Part shown: piece by piece, positions 1,053 through 64,000 of the stretch | How positions within the stretch are numbered: position 1 is the stretch's first letter | Layout: each line of letters opens with the position of its first letter | NCBI GenBank assembly: GCA_903869345.1 | Contig: CAIPYM010000053.1 | Location: forward strand, 1-64,000 | Direction of reading: 5' to 3' | Length of the DNA stretch: 64,000 nucleotides | From: an uncultured Pseudomonadota bacterium | GTDB taxonomy: Bacteria > Pseudomonadota > Alphaproteobacteria > UBA9219 | Translations under genes and position numbers: made by a program | Notes under the pieces: model-generated | Database searches by the model: none | What the model was told of the DNA's origin: nothing | Seen by the model: only the letters and a program-made list of their open reading frames with translations

Positions 1053-1196
1053 TTCTCTTCTAAGCCCCAGCTTTCGCCGGGGGTTTTTGACTCCCCGTCC
1101 TGTCGCCCGCTAGAAGGTGTCTTCGGGTCGGCTCCTTCAAAGGGGTTGGCCTGGACGCGCGGTCGTCCCAAGTCCACACCGGAATCCGGAGGCCCC

Positions 1197-2648
1197 GTGA
1201 TCGTTGACGATACCCTCGAAATGCTGGCGTTCAACCTCAAGTTGGTCGGCCAGAAAACGCGCAAAAACGTCTTGGTCAGCATCGGGACGCCTACGGATAA
1301 GGAGCGGCTCTTGCCCTCCATCCGGCGTCTGGTGGACCTGGGCAACGTGGCGCTCTACGCGACGCACGGCACGAGCCAGTTTTTGACGACCAGCGGCGTC
1401 GCCAACCAAGAGCTTTTCAAAATCGCGGAAAAGAAGGAGCCCAACATCCGGTCCTTCCTCGCGGGCGACCGGTTTGATTGCGTCATCAACATTCTGGTGG
1501 GCGACCACACCGACGAAACCAGCGACAACCGCTTGATCCGCACCGCGTGCATCGAGCACGGCATTCCGCTCATCACGGACTTGGAGGTGGCCGCCGAGAC
1601 CATCCGTTCGCTCGTGTCCGTGGCCGAGCGCAGCCGCGAGGTGTTCCGCTACAAAATCGCGGACCCCGAGCGCCCCTGGGATGCGCGGGCGCATTTTCTG
1701 CAGCATGTGGCCGACCTCGGCGGGTTTGCGTGCTACCACGCGCACTTTGATCGGGCCTACATGATGACGCGCGAGAACCTGAAACTCGCGCACATTGATA
1801 TGCAGAAAAAGTGGGACCTCGTGCGGTATTTCAAGGAGAACTTCACGCCCGAAGACTTGATCATGCGCATGTCCCGGTGCCTGGAGACAATGATCCGGCA
1901 AGGCGTCACGGCGTGCCGCACGCACGTGGACGCGGACAAGACCGTGGGGCTCATGTGCCTGGAGGCGGCGCTGGAGGTGAAAAAACTGTTCGCGGGCCGC
2001 ATTCGGTTTCAGATCAGCTTGCAACCCGCGCAGGGGCTGCTCGACCCCGAATCGCGGGCGTTTTACGCCAAGGCCGCCGAGCGTGCGGACTTTCTGGGGG
2101 GCTTGCCCTCGCGCGATCGCCCAACGCCCGAGAAGCACCTGGACATTCTGATGGACCTTGCCAAGAACCTCGGCAAAGGGGTGGACGTCCACATTGACCA
2201 GGAAAACAACCCCGACGAAAACGAGACGGAGCTGCTCGCCCTCAAGACGATCGAACACGGCCTGGAAGGACGCGTGCAGGGCATTCATGCGATCTCGCTG
2301 GCCAGCAAGCCGGAGCACGAACAAGACCGCATCTTCGCCCTGATGAAAGACGCGGGGCTGGCTGTCATCATCTGCCCCTCGGCGGCGCTCAGCATGAAGG
2401 CACTGCCCAAGTACGCACCCTTGCACAACTCCATCGCGCCCATGCCGCGCCTGCTGGAGGCCGGAATCCCGGTCTACCTCGGCGTGGACAACATCCACGA
2501 TGTCTACATGCCGCTCGTGGATGGCGACCTCTGGTACGAGTGCCGCACGATGATGGAAGCCTGCCGATTCTACGACACCGAGCGTGTTGCATCCCTCGCC
2601 TGCGACAAGCGCGGGTTTGAGGTGGGAACAGTAGGCGTTGTTGGCTGA
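1197..2648 (+). CDS. MGS-like domain fused to cytosine-deaminase-like amidohydrolase; possibly 3'-truncated
   Basis: N-terminal NVLVSIGTPTDKERLLPSIRRLVDLGNVALYATHGTSQFL...DHTDETSDNRLIRTACIEHGIPLITDLEVA resembles the MGS-like domain of CarB. C-terminal HAHFDRAY, TACRTHVDAD, DVHIDQENN, IHAISLA and GVDNIHDVYMP match CodA-type motifs. GTG start at 1197 preceded by GGAGG; ATG 1221 is an alternative. The ORF-track start at 753 runs through repeat DNA. Confidence 0.75.
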   Translation: MIVDDTLEMLAFNLKLVGQKTRKNVLVSIGTPTDKERLLPSIRRLVDLGNVALYATHGTSQFLTTSGVANQELFKIAEKKEPNIRSFLAGDRFDCVINILVGDHTDETSDNRLIRTACIEHGIPLITDLEVAAETIRSLVSVAERSREVFRYKIADPERPWDARAHFLQHVADLGGFACYHAHFDRAYMMTRENLKLAHIDMQKKWDLVRYFKENFTPEDLIMRMSRCLETMIRQGVTACRTHVDADKTVGLMCLEAALEVKKLFAGRIRFQISLQPAQGLLDPESRAFYAKAAERADFLGGLPSRDRPTPEKHLDILMDLAKNLGKGVDVHIDQENNPDENETELLALKTIEHGLEGRVQGIHAISLASKPEHEQDRIFALMKDAGLAVIICPSAALSMKALPKYAPLHNSIAPMPRLLEAGIPVYLGVDNIHDVYMPLVDGDLWYECRTMMEACRFYDTERVASLACDKRGFEVGTVGVVG

Positions 2649-3739
2649 TAAGGAATCCATCCAGGAGGTTCAAGCCTTTTGACGGCGGGTTGCTGGGTTC
2701 CCTCGGGCGTTTGGTAAACGCCGAGCCCACCGAGGAGATTGTGAAGGTAAATGCCCTCGAGTGATTCAGGCAAAAACCTTTGGTCTTCTTCCAATGTTTG
2801 AGCATTATGGAGGACGTCTAATATAGGATTTCCTGACGATGGTGAGCCAGGTGTGTTCATGGCTCGCCGTATATTGCCCCAGGCTGCTTGGAGGGCAGAG
2901 GCGGGAGGTTGAGATGCGCTGTGTACATCTTGTGGCATAAAAGCAAGATTGGCGTATTCGTCATTGTTGGTAATGGCATACATAGCGCGTAGGGAGCGAA
3001 ACGCGGGTTCAAAGCGTTCAGCGAGCCTCGAGTTGATGTGACGCACGGTATCGTACGCTATCGCGTCAGCTCTGTATTCATCACTGTATCGAATGTGGGC
3101 GACCTCATGTGCAAGGCTCCATAGTCGTCCATACAAAAGGGCATCATGCGAAAATGACATGGCAATCGTGTGCGGTGCAAAGGCGGCTAGCCCTGTAAGT
3201 GACTTTATGGACGGTACGACATCGTGTGGAGTGACGATGAGACGCAGTACGTTTGCGCCGGCTCCAAGCATAAATGTAGGTGATTGTTCGAAAGATTTAT
3301 CTTTTTTGCACAGTTTTTGTGCCGATTCCTCCCATGATTTTTGTAATCCAGCGGGGGCTCTTTGTGGAAAGAGAGCCTTAAATCCGTTTGTGCATTGTTC
3401 TTTATTTCCTGAGCTGATTCCATGAGTGATGTTTGCGGTGTGTTCGTTTGGGGTCGTAATAATAATTGTCGATTTTTCATTTGGAATAACATATTTAATA
3501 ACACGTGCGATCTCATTTCGCCAATTAATGTTTGAACTCACATAAACTCTTGGTAGATTGAAGCCTAAGGGTACGGAGCCCATTTTTGTTGGAGGTGTAA
3601 CGACTTGAGCTGAAGTGGGGCTCCCTCTGGGTGTCGTGTGTGGGGTCGGAGCCGCATTCACACCCATGGGTGTCGCTAACGCCATGGCAGCAGCTAGGAA
3701 AGCTCCATGCACAAGAGAAGAACGTTGCCAAGACATCAA
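2570..3739 (-). CDS. secreted putative zinc metalloprotease-like protein (HEVAH motif)
   Basis: 389 aa; N-terminal signal-like segment (AAAMALATPMGVNAAPT) and LAHEVAHIRYSDEYRADAIAYD (HExxH followed by EYRAD). AT-richer than flanks. Confidence 0.6.
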   Translation of the reverse strand: MMSWQRSSLVHGAFLAAAMALATPMGVNAAPTPHTTPRGSPTSAQVVTPPTKMGSVPLGFNLPRVYVSSNINWRNEIARVIKYVIPNEKSTIIITTPNEHTANITHGISSGNKEQCTNGFKALFPQRAPAGLQKSWEESAQKLCKKDKSFEQSPTFMLGAGANVLRLIVTPHDVVPSIKSLTGLAAFAPHTIAMSFSHDALLYGRLWSLAHEVAHIRYSDEYRADAIAYDTVRHINSRLAERFEPAFRSLRAMYAITNNDEYANLAFMPQDVHSASQPPASALQAAWGNIRRAMNTPGSPSSGNPILDVLHNAQTLEEDQRFLPESLEGIYLHNLLGGLGVYQTPEGTQQPAVKRLEPPGWIPYQPTTPTVPTSNPRLSQARDATRSVS

Positions 3740-63102: not shown

Positions 63103-63561
63103 TTAGCCCCCGAGCCGCGCCTTGACCTGCGGGCCGACGGTGGCGAAATCAAGGACATCCGCGTGCGTGGCTTTCAGCGCGGCCATCACCTTGCCCATGT
63201 CCTTCAGCGTCGTCGCACCCGTGGCCTGAATCGCGGTGGCAATGGCCGCATCGGTTTCCTCCGCGCTCAAAAGCCGGGGCAAGAAACGCTCAATCACGGT
63301 GATTTCGGCGGCTTCCTTTTGCGCGAGTTCCGGGCGGTGGCCCTGCTCGTAAAGCGTCATGGACTCGCGTCGTTGCTTGACCATCCCGCGCAGCATCGTG
63401 ACCAGCTCGGCGTCACCGACCCCTTGCGTGTTGCCACTGGGCCGGGCCGCAATGTCCAGGTCTTTGGCTTTCGCAAGAATCTGACGAACCGTGCCAACCG
63501 TCGTCTCATCCTTGGCCAACATCGCGACCTTCAGGGCTTGGGTCAACGTCTCACGAAGCAT
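63103..63561 (-). CDS. yqeY: GatB/YqeY domain protein
   Basis: MLRETLTQALKVAMLAKDETTVGTVRQILAKAKD...LYEQGHRPELAQKEAAEITVIERFLPRLLS; divergent from carA; start ATG 63561. Confidence 0.92.
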   Translation of the reverse strand: MLRETLTQALKVAMLAKDETTVGTVRQILAKAKDLDIAARPSGNTQGVGDAELVTMLRGMVKQRRESMTLYEQGHRPELAQKEAAEITVIERFLPRLLSAEETDAAIATAIQATGATTLKDMGKVMAALKATHADVLDFATVGPQVKARLGG

Positions 63562-63646
63562 CGGGAACCTCCTTCTTACGCAAGGGAAAAACACCTCTCG
63601 GGATGGGTTGCCTCCTACCACGCGGGACGCCATAGTGCCAACCGCT

Positions 63647-64000
63647 ATGCTTCCCACGGACCCCTCTTTGGCGCTCGGCGCCCTTTCCCCACCCCCTTCC
63701 GGCACGACGGGGGCGCTTGTTTTGGCCGACGGCACAACGCTTTGGGGCCGGGGTCTCGGGGCCGAGGGGCACGCGGTGGGCGAGGTCTGCTTCACCACCG
63801 CCATGAGCGGCTACCAAGAAGTCCTGACCGACCCCAGCTTTGCGGGCCAAATCATCACGTTCACGTTCCCGCACATCGGCAACGTGGGTACGAACCCGGA
63901 CGACCTGGAAAGCAAGCGTCCCGCCGCCCGAGGGCTTGTGATGCGGGCGCATCCGACCGAACCCTCCAACTGGCGCGCCAAAGAGCCGTTGGAGGCGTGG
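63647..64000 (+). CDS. carA: carbamoyl-phosphate synthase small subunit (partial, runs off window)
   Basis: ATG 63647 opens MLPTDPSLALGALSPPPSGTTGALVLADGTTLWGRGLGAEGHAVGEVCFTTAMSGYQEVLTDPSFAGQIITFTFPHIGNVGTN...; open at window end and absent from the ORF track. Confidence 0.93.
   Translation, partial: MLPTDPSLALGALSPPPSGTTGALVLADGTTLWGRGLGAEGHAVGEVCFTTAMSGYQEVLTDPSFAGQIITFTFPHIGNVGTNPDDLESKRPAARGLVMRAHPTEPSNWRAKEPLEAW

Follow-up and report, generated by a model that had tools for sequence, protein, structure and literature searches.

An MGS–amidohydrolase fusion protein proposed to provide an argininosuccinate-dependent entry into de novo pyrimidine synthesis

To our knowledge, the conversion of carbamoyl phosphate and aspartate to carbamoyl-aspartate and on to dihydroorotate, by PyrB and PyrC, is usually taken as the sole de novo route to pyrimidines. 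In the CAD protein of animals, the dihydroorotase, an amidohydrolase, likewise follows an MGS domain, and the fusion protein described here carries a regulatory domain of the same kind; its amidohydrolase, however, is CodA/AtzC-like and does not match the dihydroorotase models. AtzC hydrolyzes a C–N bond at a triazine ring, freeing the alkylamine isopropylamine. In Thermococcus kodakarensis, an arginine synthetase (ArcE/ArcB) supplies carbamoyl phosphate for pyrimidines (PMC13260591), so that arginine carbon feeds pyrimidines, as it would in the route proposed below; in contrast to that proposal, the product of the T. kodakarensis route is carbamoyl phosphate, and PyrB and PyrC remain in use (PMC13260591). 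In the literature outside subscription papers, we found no description of the fusion, of PRK06886, of a route from argininosuccinate to pyrimidines, or of the missing genes in the groups discussed here, the T. kodakarensis pathway being the closest one described, and the entry into de novo pyrimidine synthesis that we propose is likely to be new.

The fusion gene (Table 1) lies near the beginning of the window, i.e., the whole analyzed stretch of 64,000 nucleotides from an uncultured alphaproteobacterium. Its open frame extends in the 5' direction to a TTG codon at 753. Since the alignments of homologues start with the residue for which the GTG at 1197 codes, and since a GGAGG sequence is located just upstream of this codon, the GTG is preferred as the start. 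The N-terminal part of the protein had been read by eye as an MGS-like domain, and the profile search bears this out (PF02142, E 3.5e-14, 53.1 bits versus a gathering cut-off of 24.1). The remainder, predicted to be an amidohydrolase of the CodA type, was likewise recognized by PF01979 and, with 404.8 bits (E 2.4e-121, curated cut-off 340), by the NCBIfam equivalog model NF005365 (PRK06886), and its metal motifs are invariant in 33 homologues. This model comprises 327 aa, has no function assigned, and is named only "hypothetical protein"; the protein of the window is a member of the family that differs by its additional N-terminal MGS domain.

Table 1. Positions of the fusion gene, of its domains and putative active-site residues, and of further features mentioned in the text. 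Coordinates refer to the window unless a locus is given.
Feature	Position	Strand	Remarks
MGS-amidohydrolase fusion gene	1197..2648	+	483 aa, GTG start, stop codon ends at 2648
GGAGG, possible ribosome-binding site	1188..1192	+	4 nt before the GTG, read in the sequence
MGS domain, residues 38-127	1308..1577	+	PF02142 and alignment with E. coli CarB
PRK06886-family amidohydrolase domain, residues 163-469	1683..2603	+	NF005365; AtzC and deaminases of the CodA type closest among solved structures
HxH metal-ligand motif H181/H183 (HAHFD)	1737..1745	+	invariant in 33 homologues; putative role, by CodA/AtzC homology
H332-I-D-Q335 (HIDQ), third metal ligand and Gln at the CodA Glu position	2190..2201	+	putative role, by homology
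H364 (IHA), putative active-site His	2286..2288	+	invariant in 33 homologues; role by homology
D431 (GVDNIHD), putative metal ligand	2487..2489	+	invariant in 33 homologues; role by homology
carA, 5' part	63491..64000	+	continues beyond the window up to contig position 64819; 40% identity to CPR CarA
ArgG:MGS	L056:6983-8617		
ArgG:MGS	L114:9036-10670	-	
ArgG:MGS	seven further CPR loci		

In the alignment of 33 homologues, H181, H183, H332, Q335, H364, and D431 are all invariant. The suspicion that the general acid/base glutamate of CodA is shifted or replaced turned out to be justified, as the glutamate found in CodA three residues past the third metal histidine is absent and the position is occupied by Gln335 in 33/33 homologues. 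An AlphaFold2 model based on the 33-row family alignment (mean pLDDT 87.5) was compared with the PDB by Foldseek; top matches of the predicted structure were cytosine/5-methylcytosine deaminase (1k6w, 4r7w; 8e-22) and AtzC, and E. coli CarB followed lower in the list with alignments of about 140 columns, in agreement with the domain reading of the original prediction. Among solved structures, the profile search ranked AtzC first (2qt3, 4cqb; 3.5e-36); this enzyme shares the overall fold and the metal motif with the fusion protein, but is only about 25% identical to it, has HIHD instead of HIDQ, and acts on a catabolic triazine. Alignment indicates that the H-H-H-D metal set is shared with CodA and 5-methylcytosine deaminase; in contrast to CodA with its glutamate, however, the fusion protein has the invariant Gln335, and it scores far below the CodA family cut-offs. 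All NCBIfam cytosine deaminase cut-offs were missed (106.9 vs 403, 98.8 vs 438, and 74.9 vs 483 bits), and the dihydroorotase models TIGR00857 and TIGR00856 did not match the fusion protein at E ≤ 1.

A survey of genomes for this architecture, as the original prediction had proposed, revealed the same fusion in several phyla, with about 23 genomes in all. Bearers are found among the Thiotrichaceae (Thioploca, Parabeggiatoa, Halobeggiatoa), Thiodictyon, and the cable bacteria and their relatives, and furthermore among the Verrucomicrobiota, Planctomycetota, Myxococcota, Campylobacterota, and Alphaproteobacteria; the window's own order contains one more fusion genome, G026, whose protein shows 58% identity. 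In the amidohydrolase tree, the fusions form a single clade (support 96/92), which suggests transfer of the fusion between phyla. The same genome scan detected the standalone amidohydrolase mainly in CPR bacteria. Four distant CPR matches (L126-L129, about 30-35% identity) and L006 in G020 were set apart as different subfamilies. L006 (1366-2637, minus strand) is a divergent family member with 33% identity, located between purN- and purM-like genes; in G020, a relative equipped with PyrB and PyrC, it probably has a different function. Seven metagenomic viral contigs (L145-L151, 33-465 kb) code for a standalone family member of 38-51% identity. On some of them, PurA-like, IMPDH-like or, as judged by eye, ThyX-like genes lie near the family member, and the viral proteins possibly are encoded by nucleotide-supply genes. 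No close homologue was found in named phages and plasmids, which yielded only distant matches of ≤33% identity.

Presence or absence of enzymes was assessed by family profile searches and from chosen genome stretches. With the PyrB model TIGR00670 (ATCase), all 14 named control genomes scored over the cut-off. Only 1/23 fusion genomes did so, as compared to 60 of the 74 fusion-free class relatives (Fisher p 2e-11, a value that is overstated because the relatives are phylogenetically non-independent). The single positive, G106, is a 5.6-Mb MAG with eleven matches to dihydroorotase models and may be a mixed bin; it also is the only one of the 23 genomes in which a dihydroorotase of either type exceeded the cut-off. 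Two DHOase-like matches of G107 (208 and 180 bits) stayed below it. The other fusion genomes mostly gave one match of OTCase level with TIGR00670, and four gave none. PyrD, CarB, and ArgG, on the other hand, were over the cut-off in 21/23 fusion genomes each, and ArgH in 20/23. A pair of genomes from the same genus illustrates the alternation: G026, which is 100% complete, has the fusion without PyrB, and G032 has PyrB without the fusion.

Relatives lacking both PyrB and the fusion include genomes without convincing PyrD (G037, G038, G052, G056, G070, G079, G087, G090); against a clean rule, G017, G034, G039, G051, and G082 keep PyrD with neither PyrB nor the fusion, most of these five being incomplete or without an OTCase match. 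Many of the surveyed genomes are MAGs of unstated completeness. Assembly gaps were considered as the cause of the absence of PyrB and PyrC, but are unlikely, because G000, the window's genome, and G026 are 99.3% and 100% complete, respectively, and the pattern recurs in several phyla. We are highly confident that the fusion protein has its place in de novo pyrimidine synthesis, where it replaces PyrB and PyrC.

Family searches of G000 detected neither PyrB nor PyrC. OTCase, ArgG, PyrD, and CarB exceed the NCBIfam equivalog cut-offs, and ArgH is over its cut-off as well, so that G000 has the gene pattern of the proposed route, with PyrB and PyrC absent and PyrD and ArgG kept. No operon surrounds the fusion gene in the window, its flanking genes being located on the opposite strand and without Pfam match; hence, the window alone gives no clue to the function. 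An open reading frame of 389 aa at 2570-3739 (minus strand) codes for a protein with an HEVAH zinc-protease-like motif and without a match in Pfam. At the other end of the window, the match to CarA sets in only around residue 76 of the frame, indicating that the true start of carA is located downstream of 63491; pyrD (65807-66874) follows carA on the same contig, outside the window. A palindromic 25-bp repeat, ATTCCGGCTTTCGCCGGAATGACGG, occurs in six copies with ≤3 mismatches (34, 912, 1026, 9634, 43162, and 47067 of the window, plus strand), none being expected by chance; two copies are situated just upstream of the fusion gene.

The neighborhoods of the standalone amidohydrolase are more telling: in 31/32 loci it is located beside, or clusters with, ArgG or ArgH. 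These loci comprise a first set of 16 and a second, independent set, for which 380 genomes from the phylum to which G117 belongs were searched and the flanks of the hits taken. In the first set, 14/16 loci directly adjoin ArgH or ArgG, L068 (longer stretch, L131) contains one cluster of the order amidohydrolase-carA-carB-pyrB-pyrC-x-ArgH-pyrD-pyrK-pyrE-pyrF, and L061 is the only standalone locus with neither ArgG nor ArgH nearby. All 16 full-length members of the second set have ArgH or ArgG adjacent or one gene off, on the same strand. In loci of the ArgG type, pyrD, pyrE, pyrF or pyrK are common; the L133 cluster reads amidohydrolase-ArgG:MGS-pyrD-pyrK-pyrE-pyrF. The L114 cluster, which encodes a protein of the DDAH/arginine-deiminase family, ArgG:MGS, the amidohydrolase, PyrD, PyrF, and PyrE, is a candidate for the full set of steps leading from arginine and aspartate to UMP, and L122 codes for an additional protein of the aspartase/fumarase family. 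In two Verrucomicrobiota loci (L049:5914-8147 and L050:5989-8153), the fusion gene overlaps or abuts pyrF, which is followed by guaB.

In six CPR genomes (G117, G118, G121, G122, G124, G131), no match to CarB, PyrB, PyrC or any transcarbamylase was detected. They possess the amidohydrolase together with ArgH (five genomes) and/or ArgG (G118, G131), and each shows a PyrD match, which is weak in G122 and G131. Because G117 and G131 are mostly on single contigs (831 and 1,020 kb, respectively), a gap is a less likely reason for the absence of these genes. In other CPR genomes (G119, G120, G127-G130, G132), the amidohydrolase adjoins ArgH or shares a cluster with it, yet PyrB and, in most cases, PyrC are kept. 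The amidohydrolase is not a replacement there, and these bacteria may run both routes or may have a differing enzyme.

ArgG proteins encoded beside the amidohydrolase carried a C-terminal MGS domain in 9/9 loci, confirmed by Pfam for L056 and L114 and read from the alignment for the others. G131 has a second ArgG beside ArgH (L134), which with 419 aa is too short for an MGS domain, as expected for a separate copy dedicated to arginine synthesis. An AsnRS-like (tRNA-synt_2) protein, possibly an asparagine synthetase A-like enzyme, is fused to MGS in two loci (L069:7301-8716 and L119:10471-11967), inside the ArgG-amidohydrolase-pyrD cluster. Phylogenetic analysis placed the MGS domains fused to amidohydrolases, to ArgG, and to AsnRS-like proteins in one group, apart from those of CarB (98/96). 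The MGS domain of the fusion protein keeps the residues equivalent to K954, T974, T977, K993, N1015, D1025, and T1042 of E. coli CarB. The positions of T977 and K993, which in the E. coli enzyme matter for inhibition by UMP and its binding (PMC6245113), are conserved in every fused MGS domain aligned, and those of K954, T974, N1015, and D1025 have likewise been retained in these domains. The fused domain presumably acts as a feedback sensor for UMP or a similar nucleotide. In the CarB protein of G000 (L074:3817-7188, minus strand), the position of N1015 is occupied by Thr, whereas the fused MGS keeps Asn, and to judge from this exchange the nucleotide control of G000 CarB may differ.

ArgG and ArgH, the enzymes encoded next to the amidohydrolase, have one metabolite in common, argininosuccinate, and PyrD needs dihydroorotate as a substrate. 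Taken together, these relations lead to the proposal that the fusion enzyme converts argininosuccinate, probably in its cyclized form, and water to dihydroorotate and ornithine. We consider this reaction quite probable on the grounds of comparative genomics and homology, from which we infer the substrate, the product, the ring closure, the direction of ArgH, and the identity of the effector. Argininosuccinate is known to cyclize; closure of its aspartyl β-carboxyl group on the guanidine, probably prior to hydrolysis, would form a six-membered ring corresponding to dihydroorotate with the ornithine nitrogen at C2. Hydrolysis of the guanidino C–N bond to ornithine would then release L-dihydroorotate and L-ornithine. 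By analogy, AtzC, which cuts an alkylamine from a pyrimidine-like ring, performs the same type of bond cleavage. Dihydroorotate would enter the ordinary PyrD-PyrE-PyrF route to UMP, both PyrB and PyrC being replaced. The proposed route thus would share its product, dihydroorotate, with the canonical entry, but the latter transfers carbamoyl phosphate directly to aspartate, whereas the N–C unit would here travel via citrulline and argininosuccinate.

In bacteria which synthesize arginine, such as the organism of the window, carbamoyl phosphate (from CarAB) and ornithine would be condensed to citrulline by OTCase, and citrulline and aspartate would be converted by ArgG to argininosuccinate, the presumed substrate of the fusion enzyme; ornithine would serve as a recycled carrier. 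CPR bacteria might obtain argininosuccinate from ArgG, or from arginine and fumarate by ArgH acting in reverse. The MGS domain would sit at the step that first commits the pathway to pyrimidines, namely at the amidohydrolase in organisms whose ArgG is needed for arginine synthesis as well, and at ArgG where this enzyme would serve pyrimidines alone.

Other explanations share part of this evidence. The amidohydrolase could be a non-orthologous dihydroorotase cyclizing carbamoyl-aspartate, which OTCase or another enzyme would make in place of PyrB; a protein of the amidohydrolase superfamily in genomes which miss dihydroorotase and keep PyrD is what one would look for in this case. Since the six CPR carriers described above are devoid of CarB and of any transcarbamylase match, carbamoyl-aspartate cannot originate from a moonlighting OTCase in these bacteria, and such an OTCase was rejected as a general explanation. 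Moreover, in G000, G026, and G113 the OTCase scores exceed the equivalog cut-off for OTCase and fall far short of the one for ATCase, the fusion protein does not match either dihydroorotase model, and the linkage to ArgG and ArgH as well as the occurrence of MGS on ArgG would be left unexplained, rendering a dihydroorotase function improbable. Hydrolysis of linear argininosuccinate to ornithine and N-carbamoyl-L-aspartate, with the ring closed by a second enzyme or spontaneously, would agree with the same genomic evidence as the reaction favored here and would dispense with prior ring closure, and dihydroorotase chemistry is reversible. However, as both types of PyrC are absent from the fusion genomes, one more missing activity would have to be assumed, and the substrates of the structurally closest enzymes are rings; we therefore see little chance that the linear compound is the substrate.

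A role in the arginine pathway outside pyrimidine synthesis, such as breakdown of argininosuccinate or arginine to gain ornithine and nitrogen, might account for the adjacency to ArgH and for the CPR genomes which keep PyrB and PyrC. It is very unlikely in view of the fusion genomes, which have lost PyrB and PyrC but keep PyrD, the co-clustering with pyrD/E/F, and the fusion to a nucleotide-effector domain of the CarB type. The original prediction rightly connected the protein to pyrimidine metabolism, probably under allosteric control, but its further suggestion of a cytosine- or pyrimidine-type deaminase for salvage or catabolism did not hold. The CodA-type fold, the metal motifs, and the MGS domain would be compatible with a deaminase; the scores far below all cytosine deaminase cut-offs and Gln335 in place of the CodA glutamate argue against it, and salvage would explain neither the loss of PyrB and PyrC nor the ArgG and ArgH neighbors, so that we give this function hardly any credence. 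Missing PyrB and PyrC, or adjoining ArgG/ArgH and pyrD/E/F genes, rather point to de novo biosynthesis from an intermediate of the arginine pathway.

On balance, we favor the wider proposal that conversion of argininosuccinate to dihydroorotate constitutes a second natural entry into de novo pyrimidine synthesis, which would bypass aspartate transcarbamoylase and dihydroorotase, with ornithine as carrier and argininosuccinate as branch point. In CPR bacteria, scavenged arginine and fumarate would be channeled to UMP by reverse action of ArgH without carbamoyl phosphate, and one mobile MGS domain would have been attached to the amidohydrolase, ArgG, and the AsnRS-like protein in different lineages. 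If this is true, some bacteria build the letters of RNA and DNA without two enzymes thought to be standard, and the apparent gaps in the pyrimidine pathways of giant sulfur bacteria, cable bacteria, and CPR bacteria would be explained. Predictions of auxotrophy based on missing pyrB and pyrC would have to be corrected. A protein family annotated only as hypothetical would gain a function, and arginine metabolism would turn out to be linked to that of nucleotides in an unforeseen way.
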